This document shows positions 38,363 to 48,682 of a stretch of 64,000 bases of DNA, piece by piece. Under the pieces are notes generated by a model, which was given only the letters and a program-made list of their open reading frames with translations, made no database searches and was not told the DNA's origin. Location: assembly GCA_913047695.1 (NCBI GenBank), contig CAJWUI010000001.1:62001-126000 (forward strand), read 5' to 3'. How positions within the stretch are numbered: position 1 is the first letter of the stretch; every line of letters starts with the position of its first letter. The DNA is from an uncultured Bacteroidota bacterium. GTDB taxonomy: Bacteria; Bacteroidota; Bacteroidia; Flavobacteriales; Flavobacteriaceae. A program made the position numbers and the translations under genes.

Positions 38363-39646
38363 TTATAAGAAAGGTTTAATCTTTTCTTTTAATCTATCTA
38401 TTCCTAAATTACCCAAGCTTCCGATATGTTTATGTTTTACTTTTCGATCAGGTTTAAATTTTCCTTTTTCTATAACATTTGCTAAGTACCCATAGGCATC
38501 CCTAAATGTCTTACCTTTTAAAACTTCTTTGTTTAGCGATTCAACTGTGAAAAGATGATCATATTTTTTTTGATCGGTAATATTATTTGAGACCTTGATT
38601 TTGGGTAAACTTAAAAGTAGAATTTCTAAACATACTTTAGTTTCATTAATAGATTCAATTAATGCACCTTTAGCTTGTTGTAGATCTCTATGATAGCCGC
38701 TAGGAAGATTAGATGTTAAAAGGGTTAGCTGATTTGGTAATCCTTTAATCATATTAAATTTTGCCCTTGCTAATTCAAATAAATCTGGATTTTTTTTGTG
38801 AGGCATAATGCTCGATCCTGTAGTCAAATCATTAGGGAATGAAATAAAATCATAATCTTGTCCCATATAAAGACATATATCCATACACAATTTGGAAAGA
38901 GTATCTCCAAAAGATGATAAAGAAATTGCAACACTTTTTTCAAGCTTTCCTCTACTCATCTGTGCAGCAATAGAATTAATCTTGAGCTCCGAAAATCCCA
39001 GTATTTTAGTAGTTAATTCTCTATCTATTGGAAATGAACTTCCGTAACCTGCTGCACTTCCAAGTGGATTTTGATCTGTAATTTTGTATGCACTTTGCCA
39101 AAAGTACAGATCATCTATTAAACATTCAGCATATGCAGAAAACCATAAACCAAAGGATGAGGGCATTGCAATTTGGAGATGTGTATAACCAGGGAGTAGG
39201 TTATCTTGATATTTTTCTGCTAATGACAGAAGTAGATCAAAAAGCTTAATTATTTTCGTTTTAATTTCAATTAATTCTTTTTTAACATAAAGATGCATAG
39301 CAACTAATACCTGATCATTTCTTGATCTTGCAGTATGAACTTTTTTCCCAACTTCTCCAAGTCTTTTGGTTAAAAAATATTCGATTTTTGAATGTACATC
39401 TTCAAATTCCTTTTCAATTTTAAAGGTTTTATTTTTTATTTCTTTTTTAATTTCATCAAAAACTAAACAGAGTTGTTTAACCTCATCATTATTTATTAAT
39501 CCTACTCTTCCGAGCATTTTAACGTGTGCTATTGAAGCTTCACAATCAAATTGTGCAAGCACCATATCATATTCTCGGTCTTTTCCTACAGTAAAAGAGT
39601 CTACTTTTTCGTTTAGGTTATTTCCTTTTTTTTGCCAAAGTTTCAT
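38363..39646 (-). CDS. argH: Argininosuccinate lyase
   Basis: A 427-residue protein with the fumarase/aspartase superfamily signature GSSIMPHKKNPD and ArgH motifs VHTARSRNDQV and GYTHLQIAMPSSFG. It splits argininosuccinate into arginine and fumarate, the last step of the pathway. It is the final gene of the reverse-strand arginine operon and lies one base from argE. Slightly shorter than proteobacterial ArgH (about 460), normal for Bacteroidetes. Confidence 0.96.
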   Translation of the reverse strand: MKLWQKKGNNLNEKVDSFTVGKDREYDMVLAQFDCEASIAHVKMLGRVGLINNDEVKQLCLVFDEIKKEIKNKTFKIEKEFEDVHSKIEYFLTKRLGEVGKKVHTARSRNDQVLVAMHLYVKKELIEIKTKIIKLFDLLLSLAEKYQDNLLPGYTHLQIAMPSSFGLWFSAYAECLIDDLYFWQSAYKITDQNPLGSAAGYGSSFPIDRELTTKILGFSELKINSIAAQMSRGKLEKSVAISLSSFGDTLSKLCMDICLYMGQDYDFISFPNDLTTGSSIMPHKKNPDLFELARAKFNMIKGLPNQLTLLTSNLPSGYHRDLQQAKGALIESINETKVCLEILLLSLPKIKVSNNITDQKKYDHLFTVESLNKEVLKGKTFRDAYGYLANVIEKGKFKPDRKVKHKHIGSLGNLGIDRLKEKIKPFL

Positions 39647-39647
39647 A

Positions 39648-40694
39648 TTAAATTATTTGTTTTAGTAGATTGATATAAATTGAAATACCTTCCTCAATTT
39701 CTTTGATATAAATAAATTCATCAGCAGAATGTGAGCGAGTAGAGTCTCCAGGACCAAGTTTTAAAGAAGGGCAGCTCAATGATGCTTGATCTGATAGGGT
39801 AGGTGAACCATATGTTTTTCTTCCTAACTTTTTTCCGGCTTTTACAATTGGATGATCAATACTTATTGAAGAACTTTTTAGGTGTAGTGATCTTGCTTTT
39901 ACATTACAGGGCAAAGCTTTTTGTATCACTTCATCGATCTCATTATTTTGATAGCATTCATTTACCCTGACATCGAGTACCAATTTGACTTCAGATGGAA
40001 CTACGTTATGCTGACTACCAGCATTAATTTGCGTGAGTGTTAATTTTACGGGACCTAAAATTGGTGACACCTTTTCAAAAGAAATATTTTCAATTTTTTT
40101 AATTATTTCAGGTAATTTCATAAGTGGATTGTCCGTATTAGGATGTGCAGCATGACTCGGTGTTCCTATAATTTCAATATCAAAAACAACCAAACCTTTC
40201 TCTGCAATTGCTAATTCCATTTGAGTTGGCTCTCCGATTATGGCAAAGTCAATCTTAGGCAAGTAGGGTATTAAATAACGTAAACTTTTATCTCCTGCAG
40301 TTTCTTCTTCTGCAGATGCTACCATTAAAAGATTATATTTTAAGTTTGAGTTCTCGTAGAAATAATTAAAGCAAGCCAGAAGAGAAACTAATGCTCCACC
40401 TGCATCATTACTTCCTAGGCCATATAATTTACCATCTAAAATGTCAGCTTTAAAAGGATCTCTACTATAGGCTTTATTTGGAAGAACTGTATCGTGATGT
40501 GAATTAAGTAATATAGTTGGTTTTTTAGGATCAAATGATTTATTTACAGCCCATAAATTATTTTCTTTCCTTTCAAAAGGTATATTAAAATCTTGAAACC
40601 ATTTCTCAAGACGTTTTGCTGTTCCAGATTCATTTTTAGAGAAAGATTCTATTTCAATCAAATCTTGTAATAATTTTATTGCTCTTTGATTCAT
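39648..40694 (-). CDS. argE: M20-family deacylase (acetylornithine/acetylcitrulline deacetylase)
   Basis: A 348-residue zinc peptidase-like protein. Metal ligands are in LLNSHHDTV, GLGSNDAGG and SAEEETAGD, and a dimerisation domain is in the middle. Because the carbamoyltransferase of this cluster acts on an acylated substrate, this enzyme probably removes the acyl group from N-acyl-citrulline rather than N-acyl-ornithine. Whether the group is acetyl or succinyl is not visible. It lies two bases from argB. Confidence 0.88.
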   Translation of the reverse strand: MNQRAIKLLQDLIEIESFSKNESGTAKRLEKWFQDFNIPFERKENNLWAVNKSFDPKKPTILLNSHHDTVLPNKAYSRDPFKADILDGKLYGLGSNDAGGALVSLLACFNYFYENSNLKYNLLMVASAEEETAGDKSLRYLIPYLPKIDFAIIGEPTQMELAIAEKGLVVFDIEIIGTPSHAAHPNTDNPLMKLPEIIKKIENISFEKVSPILGPVKLTLTQINAGSQHNVVPSEVKLVLDVRVNECYQNNEIDEVIQKALPCNVKARSLHLKSSSISIDHPIVKAGKKLGRKTYGSPTLSDQASLSCPSLKLGPGDSTRSHSADEFIYIKEIEEGISIYINLLKQII

Positions 40695-40696
40695 AA

Positions 40697-41470
40697 TTAC
40701 TTTTTAATTTTAGTAAATGGTTTTTTTACCGAAAAAATATTTGAATTTCCAATACGAATTTCTTGAACACCTTTTTCTAAACATTCGAAACAATTATGTA
40801 ATTTAGGTATCATACCTTGGGATATAGTTCCTCTATTTTTTAGTTCATGATATTTTTCCGTATCAATAAAAGGTATAACAGAGTTTTCATCATTAATATT
40901 TTCTAGAACTCCCATTTTCTCGAAGCAATATGTTAGGATAACTTTAAAATTTTTAGATAAAGCTGATGCAATTGAAGCAGCAATCGTATCAGCATTTGTA
41001 TTTAGAAGCTGTCCCTTTCTGTCGTGGGTAACTGAACAACAAACGGGAACAATATTTTGTTTAATTAGCCCTGTAAAAAACGGAATATTTATTTCAGTTA
41101 AATCGCCAACAAAACCAAAATCAATATCCTGTATTGGTCTTTTTATTCCAGAGTAAGCATTTCCGTCTGCACCAGAAATTCCTAAAGCATTACAAGAAAT
41201 TGACTGAAGAAGTGAAACGATTTTTTTATTTACTTTCCCTGCATAGACCATTGTTATAAGATCAAGACTTTCAGAATCTGTAATTCTTCTTCCACCTTCA
41301 ATTTTAATTTCTATACCTATTTTTTTAGAGATATTATTAGCTTCCTTACCACCGCCATGGATTAAAATCTTAGATTCTTCTAGGCTAGCGAAATCTTCTA
41401 AAAATGATCTTAAAGAATCCTTGTTTTCAATTACTTTTCCACCAATTTTGACAACATGTAATTTATCCAT
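40697..41470 (-). CDS. argB: N-acylglutamate kinase (acetylglutamate kinase family)
   Basis: A 257-residue amino-acid-kinase fold with VKIGGKVIE at the start, the substrate and phosphate loop ILIHGGGKEANNIS, and NTNADTIAASIASAL near the nucleotide site. It phosphorylates N-acetyl- (or N-succinyl-) glutamate. The start overlaps the end of argF' by eight bases. It lacks the N-terminal helix of arginine-inhibited hexameric forms, so feedback control by arginine at this enzyme is less likely, consistent with control at the transcript. Confidence 0.93.
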   Translation of the reverse strand: MDKLHVVKIGGKVIENKDSLRSFLEDFASLEESKILIHGGGKEANNISKKIGIEIKIEGGRRITDSESLDLITMVYAGKVNKKIVSLLQSISCNALGISGADGNAYSGIKRPIQDIDFGFVGDLTEINIPFFTGLIKQNIVPVCCSVTHDRKGQLLNTNADTIAASIASALSKNFKVILTYCFEKMGVLENINDENSVIPFIDTEKYHELKNRGTISQGMIPKLHNCFECLEKGVQEIRIGNSNIFSVKKPFTKIKK

Positions 41471-42410
41471 TTTCTAGTATTTTTTTTAATACTAATTGAG
41501 CAGAATATGTCCTATTATTTGCTTGTTCAATAATTAATGAATTATTGCTATCCAAAACATCATCTGACGCGACTATATTTCTTCTAATTGGCAAACAGTG
41601 CATAAATCTTGCATTATTGGTGAGTTTCATTTTTTTTGCTGTTATCATCCAGGTGTCGTCAGTTTTTAAAATTTTTCCATAATCCGAGTATGAACACCAA
41701 TTTTTAGCATAGACAAAATCGGCACCTTCTAATGCTTCTTCTTGACTGTAAACTATAGTGTTGTCGCCTATAATTAGGGGATTCAACTCATAACCTTTGG
41801 GTTGAGCAATAACTAAATCACAATCTATATTGTTTGCCATCCTAACAAACGAATTTCCAACCGCATGTGGTAATGCTTTTGGATGAGGAGCCCATGTAAG
41901 AACAATTTTTGGACGTTTTACTTTATTCTTTTCTTTAATTGTAATTGCATCAGCTAAAGCTTGAAGTGGGTGTGCAGTAGCACTTTCCATGTTAATAACT
42001 GGTATACTCGCATATTTTATAAAACTTTTTAGAACAATTTCGTTCTCATCATTTTCTTTGCTATTTAAACTCGCAAAAGCTCTTATTCCAACCATATCGC
42101 AATATTGTGAAACAACAGCTGCAGCTTCTTTAATATGCTCTGAGCGTAAACCACTCATTTGAGTACCATCCTCAAATTCTAATGCCCATGCTTCATTTGA
42201 AAAATTCATTATCATTGTTTTCAATCCTAAAAGCTGTGCTGCTTTTTGTGAACTTAGACGCGTTCTTAGACTAGGATTAAAAAAAAGCATTCCTAAATTT
42301 TTTTGATTTCCAAGTGATTTAAAAGCAAATGGATTTTTTTTTAGTTCAATTGCTTCATTTACAGCCTCACTAAGGCTAGGCAGATCGTCAAGAGTTAAAA
42401 ATTGTTGCAT
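41463..42410 (-). CDS. argF': N-acylornithine carbamoyltransferase (AOTCase/SOTCase)
   Basis: A 315-residue transcarbamylase. The carbamoyl-phosphate loop reads NPSLRTRLS instead of the S-x-R-T-R of ornithine carbamoyltransferase, and EAWALEFEDGTQM and HCLPIRR match the acylornithine group used by Bacteroidetes and Xanthomonas. The residue at the position that, as I recall, separates succinyl-specific (Pro in Bacteroides fragilis) from acetyl-specific (Glu in Xanthomonas) enzymes is Ser90 here, so the acyl group cannot be assigned. It acts before the deacylase in this version of the pathway. It ends directly at argD's stop. Confidence 0.92.
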   Translation of the reverse strand: MQQFLTLDDLPSLSEAVNEAIELKKNPFAFKSLGNQKNLGMLFFNPSLRTRLSSQKAAQLLGLKTMIMNFSNEAWALEFEDGTQMSGLRSEHIKEAAAVVSQYCDMVGIRAFASLNSKENDENEIVLKSFIKYASIPVINMESATAHPLQALADAITIKEKNKVKRPKIVLTWAPHPKALPHAVGNSFVRMANNIDCDLVIAQPKGYELNPLIIGDNTIVYSQEEALEGADFVYAKNWCSYSDYGKILKTDDTWMITAKKMKLTNNARFMHCLPIRRNIVASDDVLDSNNSLIIEQANNRTYSAQLVLKKILENG

Positions 42411-43550
42411 TCAATAATAGTTTTTTTTCAATTCATTTTCAAGAGACTTGAAAAAGTAGTCAAAATGTTTTTCTTGTATTGTAAGAGGAGGTAATATTCT
42501 TATAACATTTTTGTTACTGCTTCCTCCGGTAAAAATTTTGTGATCATAAATTAATTTTTTTCTTAATGAGGACACTTCAAAATCAAATTCTAAACCTAAC
42601 ATCAATCCCCTTCCTTTAATTTTGTTTATTTTCTTTATTGAAGATGCTTTATTTTTAAAATATTTTTCAAGAGATTTAGTCTTTTCTTGTAGATTATCTT
42701 TTTTAATAATATCTAGAACTGCAAGTGATGCTCTACACGCAAGATGGTTTCCGCCAAACGTAGTTCCGAGAAGGCCGTGAGTTGCCTTTATTTTTGGATT
42801 AACTAAAATCCCACCAATTGGAAAACCATTTCCCATACCTTTGGCCATTGTGATGATATCAGGATTTATTTTGAACTTTTGAAAAGCAAAAAAAGTTCCT
42901 GATCTTCCAAAACCTGATTGGACTTCATCCGCCACCAGAGAGCTACGGTATTTCTCACAAAGTTTTTCCATCCCGCAAACAAATTTTTCATTTGGTTCAT
43001 CCAATCCGCCTACTCCTTGAATTGCTTCAAAAATTACTGCGCAAACATCTCCTTTAGCAAGCTCAACCTCTAAAGATATAAGATCATTAAATGGTAAAAA
43101 AGTAACCAGTTGTTGTTCATTTAATGGGGCAGTAATTTTTGCATTGTCTGTGGCTGCAACGGCTGCAGAGGTTCTTCCATGAAATGAATTTTTAAATGCA
43201 ACAATCCTTCTTTTTTTGGTATGAAATGAAGCTAGTTTTAAAGCGTTTTCAATTGCTTCTGCACCGCTATTACATAAGAAAAGTTCATAATTATCGAGTG
43301 AAGAATGTTCGCCAATTGCATCTGCCAATCTTTTTTGAAGTGGATTTTGAATTGCATTAGAATAAAATGCAATTTGATCTAATTGATTTTTTATTTGTTT
43401 AACATAATGAGGGTGACTATGACCAATAGATATAACTGCATGACCTCCATACAGATCTAGATATTTCGTACCATCATTGTCATAGACATAGACATCTTTC
43501 GCACTGCTAGGCTTTACTTGATAAAGTGGATATACGTCAAATAAATTCAT
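42411..43550 (-). CDS. argD: Acetylornithine aminotransferase (class III, PLP-dependent)
   Basis: A 379-residue class III aminotransferase. Landmarks are YLDLYGGHAVISIGHSHP, the PLP-phosphate site SGAEAIENALKLA, FEAIQGVGG, the Asp in ADEVQSGFGRSG, and the Schiff-base Lys in MAKGMGNGFPIGG. It converts N-acylglutamate semialdehyde to N-acylornithine with glutamate as donor. It sits between argF' (no gap) and proC (14-base gap). Confidence 0.95.
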   Translation of the reverse strand: MNLFDVYPLYQVKPSSAKDVYVYDNDGTKYLDLYGGHAVISIGHSHPHYVKQIKNQLDQIAFYSNAIQNPLQKRLADAIGEHSSLDNYELFLCNSGAEAIENALKLASFHTKKRRIVAFKNSFHGRTSAAVAATDNAKITAPLNEQQLVTFLPFNDLISLEVELAKGDVCAVIFEAIQGVGGLDEPNEKFVCGMEKLCEKYRSSLVADEVQSGFGRSGTFFAFQKFKINPDIITMAKGMGNGFPIGGILVNPKIKATHGLLGTTFGGNHLACRASLAVLDIIKKDNLQEKTKSLEKYFKNKASSIKKINKIKGRGLMLGLEFDFEVSSLRKKLIYDHKIFTGGSSNKNVIRILPPLTIQEKHFDYFFKSLENELKKNYY

Positions 43551-43564
43551 TTATATTGGATTTA

Positions 43565-44359
43565 TTATTGTTTAGCGATTTCATTTATTTTATCAAAAGA
43601 TGCATTAAGACCTCTAATAAGTGATGAGCTCAATCCTTGATGCTCCATTTCATTTAAACCTGTAATTGTACAACCTCTTGGTGTTGTCACTCTGTCTATC
43701 TCTTCTTCAGGGTGTGTACCAGTTTCAATAAGAAGACTGGATGCACCCATTGCAGTTTGCATCGACATTTTTAATGCTATATCTGCATCAAACCCTAATT
43801 GAACACCACCTTGTGTTGTAGCTCTAATTAATCTCATCCAGAAAGCGATTCCACTTGCACATAAAACCGTAGCAGCTTGCATATGGCTTTCCTCGATAAT
43901 TAAAGTTGTTCCTAAGCCATTAAATATTGCCTCCCCAATTGCTAAAACCTTTTTCCCATTTTTGTTACTACACAGGCATGTCATAGATTTTTTTACAGAT
44001 ATAGCTGTATTAGGCATTGATCTTATAATTGGTAATTTATTTCCGATAATTTTTTCTACACGTTCAAGAGTATATCCTGTAACTGTTGATATGACTATAT
44101 GATTATCCTTCAGATCTGGACTAATATTTTCCAAAACATTATCTAACTGGTCGGGCTGTACGGCAAAAATTAAAATATCCGAATTTTTAACTGCCACATT
44201 ATTATCTTTTGTTATAAAAACATTTTTATATTCTTTCATAAATTCAATGGAATCTAAATTCCTTTTTGTTAAATATAAAGTTGTGTGAGTGTTATTAATT
44301 ATTAAGCCCTTAGCAATACTCAGGCCTAAATTTCCAGTTCCAATGACAGCTATTTTCAT
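43565..44359 (-). CDS. proC: Pyrroline-5-carboxylate reductase
   Basis: A 264-residue protein with an N-terminal NAD(P)-binding motif AVIGTGNLGLSIAKGL and the C-terminal ProC signature (GCTITGLNEMEHQGLSSSLI). PNTAISVKKSMTCL marks the cofactor-substrate groove. It makes proline from pyrroline-5-carboxylate. Its place inside the arginine operon is common in Flavobacteria and links proline and arginine supply, which share the glutamate-semialdehyde/ornithine branch. Confidence 0.94.
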   Translation of the reverse strand: MKIAVIGTGNLGLSIAKGLIINNTHTTLYLTKRNLDSIEFMKEYKNVFITKDNNVAVKNSDILIFAVQPDQLDNVLENISPDLKDNHIVISTVTGYTLERVEKIIGNKLPIIRSMPNTAISVKKSMTCLCSNKNGKKVLAIGEAIFNGLGTTLIIEESHMQAATVLCASGIAFWMRLIRATTQGGVQLGFDADIALKMSMQTAMGASSLLIETGTHPEEEIDRVTTPRGCTITGLNEMEHQGLSSSLIRGLNASFDKINEIAKQ

Positions 44360-44368
44360 TTTTTTATT

Positions 44369-45340
44369 TTAAAAAGTTGAGGCCTTTAGTTGAAGTCCCG
44401 CATTTTCTTCCCAGCCCATAATAATATTTGTGTTTTGTATCGCTTGACCTGCGGCTCCTTTGATTAGATTGTCAAGAATACTAGTAATTAATAATATATT
44501 TTCATGTTTGTACAAATGCAAAAAACAGTAGTTACTATTAATTACAGATTTTAAACTAATTTCATTTTCAGATATTAATGTAAATGGATGCTCCTTGTAA
44601 AAATTTTTATAAATCCTTTTGACATCATTAAGGCTCCCATCATATTCAGTGTAGCAAGTTGAAAAAATTCCTCTTGTAAAATTTCCGCGATTAGGAAGAA
44701 AATTAATTTTTGGGTTACTGCCTAATTGATTTACACTTTCATATATTTCTTTTATGTGTTGATGCTTAAATGGCTTATACCATGAAAAGTTATTATTTCT
44801 CCAACTAAAGTGGGATGTTGGATTAAGGCTAATTCCTGCCCCTGTACTCCCGGTTGTAGCATTGATGTGTAAAGTATTTTTTAAATTTTGATTTTGTGCA
44901 AGAGGTAAAATAGACAATTGAATAGCTGTAGCGAAACACCCTGGGTTTGCAACAGAATCTGAGGATATAATTTTTTCTCTTTGTAGTTCAGGAAGACCGT
45001 AAACAAAATTTCGCCCATTAAAACTACTATCCATTTTTAATCTAAAATCATTACCTAAATCAACTATCAATGTCTTTTTGGAGAAATCATTATTTTTTAA
45101 AAATTCTTTTGAGTTACCATGACCTAAACACAAGTAGACAACATCAATATTTTTATTTATTCTTTTTGTAAATTTTATTTCGGTTTGACCCAACAAATCA
45201 GCGTGGCATATTGAAATTTTTTCACCTTCTTTAGACCTACTATAGACAAAATCTAATTCCAAAGAGGGGTGTTGAAGAATTAATCTAATAAGCTCTCCAC
45301 CTGTATAACCAGAACCACCAACAACTCCTACACTAATCAT
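44369..45340 (-). CDS. argC: N-acetyl-gamma-glutamyl-phosphate reductase
   Basis: A 323-residue protein with GVVGGSGYTGGELIRLI (NADP-binding), the active-site Cys in SVANPGCFATAIQLS, and a His-containing dimerisation region (FKHQHIKEI). It reduces acylglutamyl phosphate to the semialdehyde. The start overlaps the end of argG by eight bases, so coupled translation is likely. Confidence 0.95.
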   Translation of the reverse strand: MISVGVVGGSGYTGGELIRLILQHPSLELDFVYSRSKEGEKISICHADLLGQTEIKFTKRINKNIDVVYLCLGHGNSKEFLKNNDFSKKTLIVDLGNDFRLKMDSSFNGRNFVYGLPELQREKIISSDSVANPGCFATAIQLSILPLAQNQNLKNTLHINATTGSTGAGISLNPTSHFSWRNNNFSWYKPFKHQHIKEIYESVNQLGSNPKINFLPNRGNFTRGIFSTCYTEYDGSLNDVKRIYKNFYKEHPFTLISENEISLKSVINSNYCFLHLYKHENILLITSILDNLIKGAAGQAIQNTNIIMGWEENAGLQLKASTF

Positions 45341-46526
45341 CTTTTTTATTTAAATAGTGATATACTTTTGACGAATTTCCAGTTAATTTGATAAATCCTT
45401 TTGCTTCTTCAGCTGTCCAACCTTCATTAATTTCTCCATATTTACCTAATTTTGTTAACATTAAATCGTTTGGAGAATCAATTCCCTCAAGTTCATACCT
45501 GTAAGGATGTAATTTGAGATATACTTTACCGCTAACTTTTTTCTGGCTACTTTCCATAAATGCCTCCAAATCTCTCATAACAGGATCTAAATAATGGCCT
45601 TCATGTAGTTGCATCCCATAAAAATTACTAAGTTGTTCTTTTTGAAAAAGTTGCCATTTACTCAAAGTGTGTTTTTCTAAAAGATGATGCGCTTTAATAA
45701 TTATAATTGGAGCTGCAGCTTCAAACCCAACTCTTCCCTTAATTCCAATGATAGTGTCACCAACATGAATATCACGACCTATTCCAAAATCTTTTGCTAA
45801 AATTTGCAGTCTTTGAATTAGCTTGGATGGTTTACCCCTTTCTCCATTAATAGCAAATAGTTCACCAGTTTTGAATTCTATTTGTAATTTTACTGATTCA
45901 GATTTAATTACTTTACTTGGGTAGGCTGAATCGGGTAAAGGATCCCTAGAGTTTAATGTTTCAGCACCGCCTACACTTGTACCCCATAGTCCAGTATTTA
46001 TTGAGTATTTAGCTTTCTCCCAAGATATATTTATCCCACGTGAATTTAAATATTTAATTTCACTTTCTCTTGAGAGGTTTTGATCTCTAATTAATGAAAT
46101 AATTTCAATTTCTGGAGCTAGAATTTGAAAGATCATATCAAAACGAACTTGATCGTTACCTGCTCCTGTACTACCATGGGCTATATACTTCGCATTTATT
46201 GATTTAGCATAGGATACTATTTCAACAGCCTGAATAATCCTTTCAGCACTTACAGACAAGGGGTAGGTATTATTTTTTAGAACATTTCCAAAAATTAAAT
46301 ATTTGACAATTTTGTTATAAAACGTTTCTAAACCGTTCACGTTTTTATACTTATAGGCACCTATTTCATAGGCTCTTTTCTCCATTAATTTGATATCATT
46401 ATCTGAGAATCCTCCCGTATTTATACAAACTGCATGTACTTCATATTCTTCTTGAGATAATTTCTTAAGTGAATATGAGGTGTCTAATCCACCGCTATAA
46501 GCCAAAACTAGTTTTTTTTGTTCCAT
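45333..46526 (-). CDS. argG: Argininosuccinate synthase
   Basis: A 397-residue ATP-pyrophosphatase with the PP-loop LAYSGGLDTSYSLKKL, GSTGAGNDQVRFD, and the citrulline/aspartate site around NTGLWGTSVGGAETL. It joins citrulline and aspartate. The proximal position, just behind the GNAT gene, differs from organisms where argG lies beside argH at the end. Confidence 0.95.
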   Translation of the reverse strand: MEQKKLVLAYSGGLDTSYSLKKLSQEEYEVHAVCINTGGFSDNDIKLMEKRAYEIGAYKYKNVNGLETFYNKIVKYLIFGNVLKNNTYPLSVSAERIIQAVEIVSYAKSINAKYIAHGSTGAGNDQVRFDMIFQILAPEIEIISLIRDQNLSRESEIKYLNSRGINISWEKAKYSINTGLWGTSVGGAETLNSRDPLPDSAYPSKVIKSESVKLQIEFKTGELFAINGERGKPSKLIQRLQILAKDFGIGRDIHVGDTIIGIKGRVGFEAAAPIIIIKAHHLLEKHTLSKWQLFQKEQLSNFYGMQLHEGHYLDPVMRDLEAFMESSQKKVSGKVYLKLHPYRYELEGIDSPNDLMLTKLGKYGEINEGWTAEEAKGFIKLTGNSSKVYHYLNKKDD

Positions 46527-46538
46527 TTTATTTTTTTT

Positions 46539-47111
46539 TTAAGATAAATTTGATCTAATACTTTTATCCTGTTTAGTCTTTATGTTATTTTGTTCTGGAT
46601 CGTATAACATTCCAGTGCATAAACACATTTGTCTTTCTGTTCTTGTCAAGATGTCATAATTTTTACAAGTTTGACATCCTTTCCAAAATTCTGGATCATC
46701 TGTTAATTCTGAAAAGTGGACTGGCTTATAGCCAAGGTCATAATTTATTTTCATTACAGGCATACCTGTCGTAATTCCGAAGACTTTAGCTTTTGGATAT
46801 TTTTTAAGGGAAAGTTCAAAAACTTGTTTTTTTATTTTTCGTGCCAGACCTTTTCCTCTGTAATTTGGTGCAACTATTAATCCAGAATGTGCTACATATT
46901 TTCCATGTCCCCAAATTTCTATATAACAAAACCCTGCAAATTTTTCTAAATCCAGTGCTATAACAGCATTTCTATTTTCAATTTTTTTAGCAATATATTC
47001 AGGAGTCCTTCGGGCAATACCAGTACCCCTAACCTTTGCTGATTCGTCGATGCAAAGACTTATTTCTCTACAATATATAATGTGTTCCGCTTTTGCGTGT
47101 AAAATTTTCAT
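46539..47111 (-). CDS. GNAT-family N-acyltransferase heading the arginine operon, with Cys cluster
   Basis: A 190-residue protein. Acetyl-CoA site LIVAPNYRGKGLARKIKK (about 78-95) is a clear GNAT motif. After the GNAT core, four cysteines occur as C146-x2-C149 and C163-x-C165 (GCQTCKNYD and MCLCTGMLYD), a metal-site pattern. No argA or argJ is present in the window, so as the first gene of a complete arginine operon this protein is the best candidate for making N-acylglutamate. That is inferred from position and family. Its ATG lies behind the leader/attenuator region. Confidence 0.82.
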   Translation of the reverse strand: MKILHAKAEHIIYCREISLCIDESAKVRGTGIARRTPEYIAKKIENRNAVIALDLEKFAGFCYIEIWGHGKYVAHSGLIVAPNYRGKGLARKIKKQVFELSLKKYPKAKVFGITTGMPVMKINYDLGYKPVHFSELTDDPEFWKGCQTCKNYDILTRTERQMCLCTGMLYDPEQNNIKTKQDKSIRSNLS

Positions 47112-47163
47112 AAATGTTTAAGTGAAATGTAAAATGAGATGAAAGGGGGAGAAGGGCTAACCA

Positions 47164-47218
47164 TACTCCAAAAAAGGCTACACCCCAATGGGGCGATAAC
47201 GCAAGCGAAAGGTTGTAG
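47164..47218 (-). promoter_or_regulatory. Candidate transcription attenuator of the arginine operon
   Basis: Overlaps the leader-peptide gene. On the reverse strand, CTACAACC pairs with GGTGTAG (one bulge; outer arms at 47214-47218 and 47178-47182), and TTTTTT follows two bases later, a terminator-like layout. The competing pairing CGATAAC (47218-47224) with GTTATCG (47194-47200) uses overlapping bases. Arg codons CGC, CGT and CGC lie inside these arms, so ribosome stalling on low Arg-tRNA would disturb the terminator. The block is visibly richer in G+C than its surroundings. Confidence 0.55.
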
Positions 47219-47264
47219 TTATCGTCGAAAATGTAATTAAACTAAAAAATTTGTTTTCTAACAT
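47178..47264 (-). CDS. Putative arginine-operon leader peptide (28 residues)
   Basis: ATG at 47264, 28 codons, TAG at 47178-47180. The peptide ends FRLRYRPIGV, giving three Arg codons within five residues, placed exactly in the arms of the downstream hairpin. A run of Thr and Phe precedes it. The promoter's -7 box ends eight bases before the ATG, so the transcript would begin within a few bases of the start codon (leaderless). Ribosome-mediated attenuation of arginine synthesis is inferred from this layout. Confidence 0.55.
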   Translation of the reverse strand: MLENKFFSLITFSTITTTFRLRYRPIGV

Positions 47265-47271
47265 GATAATA

Positions 47272-47302
47272 CAAAATTCATGTAAAAATTTGAGAAAACA
47301 AA
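47272..47302 (-). promoter_or_regulatory. Promoter of the arginine operon
   Basis: On the reverse strand, TTTG (47299-47302), exactly 19 bases, then GAATTTTG (47272-47279). This matches the Bacteroidetes consensus TTTG-N19-TAnnTTTG except for the first base of the -7 box. Confidence 0.6.
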
Positions 47303-47377: not shown

Positions 47378-48682
47378 ATGTCTGAGATTTATTCTGAGAT
47401 TAATTCAAATCTTGAAAAACTTACTAATAAAATTATTCTTTTAGCTCACAGCGGCGGTGTGGATAGTTGTGTCCTTTGTGATATTTTAATTCGGAATAAA
47501 ATTAAATTTTCCGTTGCACATTGCAATTTTCAATTAAGAGGTGAAGAAAGTGATAATGATTTGTTATTTGTAAAAAAGTGGTGCAAAAAAAATAGAATTA
47601 AATTTTATCATAAAATATTTAATTTGAAAGATTATAAACTAAAAAATAAAAAAGGTATTCAAGAGGCGGCCCGTGATTTAAGATATAAATGGTTTAGTCA
47701 ACTCACTACTAACAAGGGTTTTGATTATTTAGTAACTGCACATCATTTAAATGATCAGTTCGAAACTTTTTTAATGAATGCATCAAGGGCGTCAGGTATT
47801 TTTGGTTTGGTAGGAATTCCTGAATCTAACAAACTACTTAGGCCTTTACTTAACGTAACAAAAATGCAAATTCTTGATTACGCAAAAAAAAATAATCTGG
47901 AATGGAGAGAAGACTCATCAAATACTAGTGAAGATTATTTTCGTAATATAATTAGACATCAGATTGTAAAACCTTTCGAGAATCATAAACCAAAAACTCT
48001 TGAAAATTTCAAAAAAACATTAGTACACCTTAAAGATGCTCAAGAATTTATTTCTAATCAATTTGATAAGCTCAAAAAAGAGCTTTTTATTAAAAAAAAC
48101 AAACATACATATGTATTCATTGAATCTTTAAAAAAAATAAAACCATTAAGTTTCAGTCTACACCATTTTTTTTCCCCTTTGGGATTTAATTCTAAAGAAG
48201 TAGAAAAATTAGTATTTTCTTCACCTGGAAAGCTAATTCTTAGTAAAAAATATCGTTTAATTCGGGACAGAAAATATTTAATATTATCCCCCTTACTAAA
48301 AATAAAAATTAATGAAATCTTAATTGATCTCGATAAGAAAAATTCAAAACTACCAATTCCTATTAAGTGGGAATACATTTCAAATTTTGAAAAAAAAGCA
48401 TATAAAAATAATGAGGTATTTTTAGATCGAGAAACTTTGAAAAGTCCAATATCTTTAAGGAAATATAAAAATGGCGATTACTTTTATCCTTCTGGAATGA
48501 AAGGGAAAAAATTACTTAGTAAATTTTTCAAAGATGAAAAATATTCACTTTTGGACAAAGAGGAACAATGGTTACTATGCTCTAAAGGTGAAATTGTATG
48601 GATAATTGGGAAACGTTGTGATAATAGATTTCTGGCAACACCAAACACAAAAAATAAATTACTAATGCGCGATTTGAGATGA
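47378..48682 (+). CDS. tilS: tRNA(Ile)-lysidine synthetase
   Basis: A 434-residue protein with PP-loop LLAHSGGVDSCVLCD, ATP-site segments HCNFQLRGEESDND and TAHHLNDQFETFLMNASRASG, NIIRHQIVKPF, and a C-terminal TilS domain with YPSGMKGKKLLSKFFKDEK. It modifies C34 of the CAT-anticodon tRNA-Ile so that it reads AUA, an essential step. It overlaps dsbD by four bases (ATGA). Confidence 0.95.
   Translation: MSEIYSEINSNLEKLTNKIILLAHSGGVDSCVLCDILIRNKIKFSVAHCNFQLRGEESDNDLLFVKKWCKKNRIKFYHKIFNLKDYKLKNKKGIQEAARDLRYKWFSQLTTNKGFDYLVTAHHLNDQFETFLMNASRASGIFGLVGIPESNKLLRPLLNVTKMQILDYAKKNNLEWREDSSNTSEDYFRNIIRHQIVKPFENHKPKTLENFKKTLVHLKDAQEFISNQFDKLKKELFIKKNKHTYVFIESLKKIKPLSFSLHHFFSPLGFNSKEVEKLVFSSPGKLILSKKYRLIRDRKYLILSPLLKIKINEILIDLDKKNSKLPIPIKWEYISNFEKKAYKNNEVFLDRETLKSPISLRKYKNGDYFYPSGMKGKKLLSKFFKDEKYSLLDKEEQWLLCSKGEIVWIIGKRCDNRFLATPNTKNKLLMRDLR

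Follow-up and report, generated by a model that had tools for sequence, protein, structure and literature searches.

On the minus strand of the window, by which the whole analysed stretch of 64,000 nucleotides is meant, lies an arginine operon whose gene order begins GNAT-argG-argC-proC (Table 1). The divergent tilS gene starts on the plus strand at position 47378, and between tilS and GNAT sits a short reading frame that ends in Arg codons and closes 66 nt before the GNAT start. The assembly from which the window stems comprises 1.96 Mb and is 89% complete; it is one of 42 genomes, among 60 searched, in which GNAT is present. An alignment of nine GNAT sequences shows conserved Cys residues close to the C-terminus; the protein is perhaps an acetylglutamate synthase of the arginine pathway, an assignment offered as a guess. 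Inspection by eye of the region upstream of ilvD in the window revealed no leader like that of the arginine operon.

Table 1. Genes and putative control features of the arginine operon, in window coordinates.
Feature	Position	Strand	Evidence
GNAT acetyltransferase, operon gene 1	46539..47111	-	PF00583 and PF13508 above cut-off
argG	45333..46526	-	PF00764 and PF20979 above cut-off; TIGR00032 slightly under cut-off
argC	44369..45340	-	TIGR01850 above cut-off
proC	43565..44359	-	TIGR00112 above cut-off
argD-like aminotransferase	42411..43550	-	TIGR00707, under its cut-off
N-acetylornithine carbamoyltransferase (argF')	41463..42410	-	NF003384 above cut-off
argB-, argE- and argH-like frames (41470-40697, 40694-39648, 39646-38363)	38363..41470	-	translations read by eye
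Leader peptide gene, 28 codons, MLENKFFSLITFSTITTTFRLRYRPIGV and stop	47178..47264	-	sequence; frame kept in 33/33 measured genus loci
Arg control codons CGC 47207-47205, CGT 47201-47199, CGC 47195-47193	47193..47207	-	sequence
Putative -33 element TTTG	47299..47302	-	sequence
Putative -7 element GAATTTTG, one mismatch to TAnnTTTG	47272..47279	-	TTTG-N7-ATG kept in genus
Hairpin S, CGCCCC-ATT-GGGGTG	47181..47195	-	last Arg codon to base before stop
T-run after S, TTTTTT, possible weak terminator tail	47170..47175	-	passes loose scan, not strict
Hairpin B: GGAGTA, bulge T, GG, loop TTAGC, CC, TTCTCC; one outer-stem mismatch	47148..47169	-	covariation
C-rich, G-poor stretch up to GNAT start	47112..47155	-	base composition; possible Rho loading or unstructured 5' UTR

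The initial annotation had proposed an Arg-codon leader frame here, behind a promoter that places the transcript start almost on its ATG, and both were located in the sequence. The distal TTTG, which we take to be the -33 promoter element, is separated by 19 nt from GAATTTTG, which in turn lies 7 nt 5' of the leader ATG. The consensus of the -7 element is TAnnTTTG according to PMC9723704. A spacing of 7 nt between TTTG and ATG recurs in 28 of the 33 measured loci of the genus, and it is from this promoter spacing that the mRNA is putatively leaderless or nearly so. The G+C-rich block at the end of the frame, for which the annotation had named a dispersed repeat as the competing explanation, is single-copy and thus not a scattered repeat: with up to three mismatches allowed, the 1.96-Mb assembly contains a single copy of a 23-nt core, and a 30-nt core is present once in the window and in none of 100 shuffles. 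The overall stability of the transcribed strand is unremarkable (z -1.57, with equally good values in 13 of 200 shuffles; opposite strand z -3.17), and what exceeds chance at the leader is conservation of the frame and of Arg clusters, not overall fold stability.

Conservation of the Arg-codon leader

Among 35 loci of the genus examined, 33 could be measured, the others being excluded because of a contig end (L038) or because TTTG-N-ATG is lacking (L044). From the ATG to the last Arg codon the frame is open and in register at all 33, and the other two frames contain stops in 22 and 31 of them, so that the peptide conservation on which the initial annotation had made its case depend is borne out. 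The CGCCC of the last Arg codon lies 23 codons from the ATG in 28 loci, 22 in three and 21 in two. The N-terminus of the peptide is variable; its C-terminal end reads, with exceptions, LR...RRPxGV or RRP followed by the stop, and since two leaders (L037, L039) stop directly after RRP, the GV end is dispensable. The leader Arg codons in the genus are CGY in 106 of 111 cases (58 CGC, 48 CGT, five others), as opposed to 130 of 612 in the genes of the window, where CGC accounts for 22 of 612. The window's own leader has only three Arg codons.

Leaders were counted by an Arg-cluster test, which asks for a short ATG frame with at least three Arg within six codons near its end. It is passed by 31 of 34 upstream regions of the genus (shuffle mean 0.2, maximum 2), with six of 34 passing on the opposite strand as well; Thr clusters show a smaller excess (6/34 against 0.8 in shuffles). 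Both these figures and those on frame conservation include L047 (G013:C51), a second GNAT copy with a leader resembling those of another genus (L202, L203, L209), whose contig is perhaps a contaminant, and all loci are related by descent, so that the counts are not independent events.

In named Flavobacteriaceae, among them Zobellia, Maribacter, Cellulophaga, Tenacibaculum, Gillisia, Salegentibacter, Nonlabens and Formosa, Arg frames precede the operon at 63 of 80 loci (shuffles 2.6, maximum 5; opposite strand 13), and 57 of 73 pass if the seven loci assigned to the window's genus are removed. The class was represented by 100 upstream regions out of 109 match rows, the other nine rows being the window's own genome, G040, G053, G343, G227, G339, G082 and the second matches of G263 and G351. 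Arg frames were found in 43 of these regions (shuffles 4.2, maximum 9; opposite strand six), and the other 57 lie below the threshold. The positives, some of which surely arose by chance, span 17 of 31 families, and one of them belongs to f46, a family bearing ArgR. For eight other amino acids, no excess comparable to that of Arg was found in the class regions.

The type of Arg codon differs by family (AGG, CGA or CGY) and so do the stems, from which it follows that the amino acid rather than the base sequence is conserved. Flavobacteriaceae widely retain a Pro behind the Arg run, and in many loci the stop comes directly after RRP; the residues flanking the run are highly variable between families. 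The Arg-codon leader of the arginine operon is thus real and widespread, its conservation extending from the genus through Flavobacteriaceae to other families of the class, and the sensing of arginine by this leader is well supported as a reading of these sequences.

In some genera the leader appeared to lie about 230 nt from GNAT. This distance is only apparent: the frame finder keeps the top-scoring frame, which in 12 picked loci is the first member of a tandem pair of Arg-rich frames (L242, L258, L260, L262, L264, L266, L268, L269, L270, L088, L089, L090). The stops of the two are 129-157 nt apart, and the second frame ends at hairpin S (Table 1) in all 12; it has an ATG at least 30 codons upstream in three of them and GTG or TTG in the rest.

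The arginine repressor ArgR (PF02863) was searched in 80 of the 113 genomes first listed and was found in ten of these GNAT-bearing genomes; by the same model there is none in the window's own genome at its 89% completeness. Nine hits are strong and place argR directly upstream of GNAT on the same strand (G089, G127, G157, G187, G213, G237, G279, G331, G348), and the tenth (G160) lies at the cut-off. A leader score of at least 3 was reached in one of nine ArgR genomes versus 29 of 61 others (Fisher p 0.068), a comparison that is confounded because argR occupies the very region in which a leader would lie. A replacement of ArgR by the leader is therefore suggested.

Hairpins S and B and the stretch before GNAT

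The initial annotation had drawn competing hairpin arms over the Arg codons, followed by TTTTTT. Hairpins over these codons do exist, and the pairing CGATAAC/GTTATCG is present, being kept in the nearest clade only. Its supposed competitor CTACAACC/GGTGTAG is likewise present in the window, yet its arms are not conserved, the nearest relatives (L014-L017) differing in both, and it was dropped as a competing fold. The structures that are conserved are hairpin S and, downstream of it, hairpin B, which the annotation did not contain.

Hairpin S holds the last Arg codons and the stop, many loci having the stop within the loop or immediately behind it; in the window's clade S is lengthened by GTTA/TAGC (47200-47197 with 47180-47177). 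A survey of 118 loci (L191-L196 dropped as genus repeats), 15 of which lack the core of hairpin B, found the arms CGCCC/GGGTG in 72 of the 103 loci bearing B; since the survey maximised pairing, its set of 16 arm pairs is biased and includes some doubtful ones. Salegentibacter (L260) and Christiangramia (L270) show a compensatory change to CGCAC/GTGCG. Folding at the stop is mildly better than in shuffles (mean z -0.48 in the genus, -0.32 in the named set minus its first eight loci and -0.77 in the class, where the stretch upstream as a control gives -0.67). The conservation of S is less strongly shown than that of the frame, the CGY bias or hairpin B.

The T-run behind S is there as annotated and is only loosely kept among relatives. 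A strict U-tailed terminator at S occurs in six genus loci, the window passing a looser criterion only; counted at any position, strict terminators occur in seven of 43 genus-and-order regions (none on the opposite strand) and in seven of 100 class regions (two on the opposite strand). On geometric grounds, moreover, the U-run is so close to S that a coupled ribosome would sit alike whether stalled or not.

In its consensus form, hairpin B consists of N6, then, after 1-2 bulged nucleotides, GG, UGNGY, CC and N6'; the window's own loop, TTAGC, departs from this. The core was found in 97 of 223 upstream regions by a search pattern that demanded it, so that its invariance is partly built in. In 39 distinct B sequences with at least four of six pairs, 200 of 234 cells pair versus 161.9 (maximum 176) with partners shuffled; one bulge class of 29 sequences is 94.0% paired with 40 both-side changes versus 15.2, and one of 16 sequences is 97.7% paired with 14 versus 4.2, the pairing in both bulge classes being inflated by the demand for at least four of six pairs and by the choice of whichever of two bulge lengths paired better. 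A contrary control comes from the class of 16, where further pair types number 8 versus 9.3 in shuffles. Folding over B relative to shuffles gives z +0.48 in the genus, which is no better, -0.71 in the named set and -1.29 in the class.

The position of B is narrowly kept, at 56-69 nt 5' of GNAT in 44 of 45 distinct cases and at 55-75 nt in 64 of 65 named loci. A model built from the 29 sequences and searched in 41 family genomes with E up to 1 gave 33 hits in 26 genomes and none in the other 15; 25 hits precede GNAT-argG and are the top hits of their genomes (25 of 26 genomes), and of the remaining eight the five inspected (L295, L297-L300; E 0.029 and weaker) have no GNAT, argG or tilS nearby. 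In the own genome the model matches window positions 47144-47172 (E 0.004), and in the genus it matches before GNAT in 21 of 23 genomes, G020 having no GNAT match and G011 being missed. A hit of E 0.004 in another family (G038) lies away from GNAT. Outside Flavobacteriaceae the core GG-TGNGY-CC was found in none of 90 regions. In seven of those 90, and in no shuffles, a hairpin capped CC-TNCGY-GG follows the arg leader with differing stems (L098, L100, L116, L127, L131, L142, L168); mimicry of the tRNA-Arg anticodon, considered for such UNCG-like loops of other families, does not fit UGNGY. Covariation and position support B as an RNA element.

A switch in which the 3' arm of S competes with B was rejected. 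Such competition seemed complete in 89 sequences, but the search pattern had demanded both motifs, and the S-to-B swap fails in several loci: L260, L270, L088 and L242 keep the B core with another 3' arm of S.

The last 50 nt before GNAT contain on average 12.8 C and 2.1 G in 34 genus loci, as compared with 5.7 C and 5.9 G in a control of 22 window genes, one of which is GNAT (16 C, 2 G). In the named loci the stretch after B has 18.6% C and 6.7% G (C exceeding G in 63 of 65), and in the class the bias over 90 nt is weak (17.6 C, 13.4 G; C exceeding G in 79 of 100).

Readings of the leader and its hairpins

The region is probably a ribosome-mediated attenuator, an arginine-sensing leader of the arginine operon built on Arg codons, and control by arginine through the ribosome is the most likely mode of action. 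In this model, a near-leaderless mRNA would start just 5' of the leader gene of 28 codons, in the last third of which stand CGY Arg codons that are infrequent in this genome. As long as charged tRNA-Arg is plentiful, the ribosome would reach the stop and depart, S and B could form, and few transcripts would turn into productive arg operon mRNA. With Arg-tRNA short, the ribosome would stall at the CGY codons, cover the 5' arm of S and block its fold, and once S is prevented the operon would be expressed. Translation of the leader, stalling, the direction of the response and an early end of transcription as the controlled step are what we infer from the arrangement; candidates for that end are intrinsic termination at S, Rho-dependent termination, or an end brought about via B.

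How the leader of hisG (L301, G000:C1:364115-364579) is built in the same genome bears on this choice. It encodes a His peptide, MKTLLHHIHQFENCSNEK and stop, behind TTTG-N7-ATG, and by eye a U-tailed hairpin follows, with a leader segment complementary to the 5' arm of that hairpin. Leader and terminator of hisG are textbook-like, and the arg leader, where S and its T-run pass the loose scan only, thus departs from the plain his type. In another family (L130, L135) the Arg leader is followed by a strong, plain U-tailed terminator, to whose 5' arm the leader end CGGCAGGC is complementary by eye; folding with a masked ribosome still favours the terminator there, so that antitermination in these two loci would depend on co-transcriptional timing.

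The same Arg sensor could act through mRNA decay or termination by Rho within the C-rich stretch that follows B, which we regard as possible, if clearly the less probable course. By analogy it may be likened to Salmonella orf34-speF (PMC6386406), which together with the Mycobacterium (Actinobacteria) cys leaders, described without obvious terminators in PMC1262725, would provide precedents. The C-rich, G-poor composition before GNAT in the genus and named loci is consistent with it, as is the fact that strict terminators are few at the arg leader, yet the his leader of the same genome has one. Then again, a G-poor 5' UTR may merely keep the start codon open, the C bias fades in the class set, and a ribosome stalled upstream would leave the C-rich stretch unshielded. 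Hairpin B might instead be the true regulatory element, the target of an arg-specific RNA-binding protein or a ligand-binding RNA that the Arg leader gates. The covarying arms around GG-UGNGY-CC, the placing of the best model hit before GNAT throughout family and genus, and the fixed distance to GNAT in the named loci argue for this; we still hold it to be unlikely, since no partner was found, the core invariance is partly built in, the window's loop is aberrant, the pairing figures are inflated, and folding over B in the genus does not surpass that of shuffles. Somewhat less doubtful, and still put forward tentatively, is an undescribed two-part control of flavobacterial arg operons, in which the Arg leader, perhaps doubled in some genera, and an arg-operon-specific B, with a loop read by a protein or by arginine itself, would stand in for ArgR.

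Two further readings concern the peptide itself. Like the fungal arginine attenuator peptide, a nascent Arg-rich end could arrest the ribosome upon sensing free arginine; the widely kept Pro behind the Arg run would suit such a peptide. It is nevertheless highly improbable, given that flanking residues diverge between families, that the stop comes right after RRP in many loci and that the Arg-Pro bases double as an arm of S. This double use also invites the reverse view, in which G+C-rich hairpins yield the Arg codons as a by-product and the peptide is irrelevant, CGCCC of S being stem arm and Arg-Pro at once. When S was kept and only the 60 nt upstream of it were shuffled, in the 102 B-bearing loci with at least 62 nt upstream, at least two Arg in the last 12 codons of the S-ending frame still occurred in a mean of 62.6 loci (observed 101); at least three occurred in 22.6 (maximum 31) versus 97 observed. 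This difference, the frame held open in the genus despite variable N-termini, and the use of AGG or CGA with other stems elsewhere leave the by-product view disfavoured and scarcely credible.

Relation to known leaders and meaning for the flavobacteria

To our knowledge, the classic operons with leader peptides do not include those for arginine synthesis. With the his and trp attenuators the arg leader shares a short frame with codons for the product just upstream of the biosynthetic operon, and hairpins over these codons; it differs in its Arg codons, the rarity of strict terminators, the additional hairpin B and the stop in or beside S. Also close is the Bacteroid-trp RNA (RF01692), named as a tryptophan peptide leader and listed in PMC2864571, which likewise is a Bacteroidetes leader with its control codons (TGG) inside a hairpin; in the trp loci inspected by eye a U-tailed hairpin follows. 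RF01692 has no match at the arg leader and, under stricter filters, none in the own genome (five of 119 genomes match). At gathering score, Rfam models detect a single tRNA and no T-box in the window, and nothing at the loci of eight relatives; below threshold there are three weak hits, one of which, RF01101, overlaps the leader (E 2.1, 16 bits versus 44) and is taken as chance.

In F. psychrophilum, leader-peptide attenuation was inferred before amino-acid operons, with pheA and hisG among the structured elements (PMC9723704); these flavobacterial 5' regions are of a like kind, no arg operon being named in the accessible main text, and its supplement may list one. Related leaders have been described in other settings. 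In orf34-speF of Salmonella, consecutive Arg codons in an upstream frame sense arginine with involvement of Rho, but the target is an ornithine decarboxylase, the RNA folds are other ones and the host is proteobacterial (PMC6386406). The rare-Arg-codon leader rbfL of Staphylococcus aureus senses arginine shortage and differs from the arg leader in that it blocks the ribosome binding site and in that shortage lowers expression (PMC13009471). The carA leader peptide of Pseudomonas aeruginosa precedes a gene feeding arginine synthesis, its attenuation being tied to pyrimidines and control by arginine to transcription (PMC4997734). Short leader-peptide-like frames have been noted in B. thetaiotaomicron (PMC7366714), and the main text of PMC2965389, as far as accessible, contains no mention of arginine, Bacteroid- or Flavobacteri-. 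In the open-access literature, as searched in articles apart from their supplements, no Arg-codon leader of an arginine operon was found reported in Bacteroidota, nor did the open-access literature yield an account of arginine-synthesis control in Bacteroidota that lack ArgR.

Hairpin B is a candidate new RNA element. Because the genome also carries the his leader, a read-out based on a terminator can be compared with another one within a single organism. The conserved Arg frames make a direct test possible in the cultivated Zobellia, Maribacter and Cellulophaga. In marine flavobacteria and many of their relatives, arginine is probably sensed through a tiny throw-away peptide, rich in Arg codons, encoded right before the arginine genes beside a conserved RNA hairpin.
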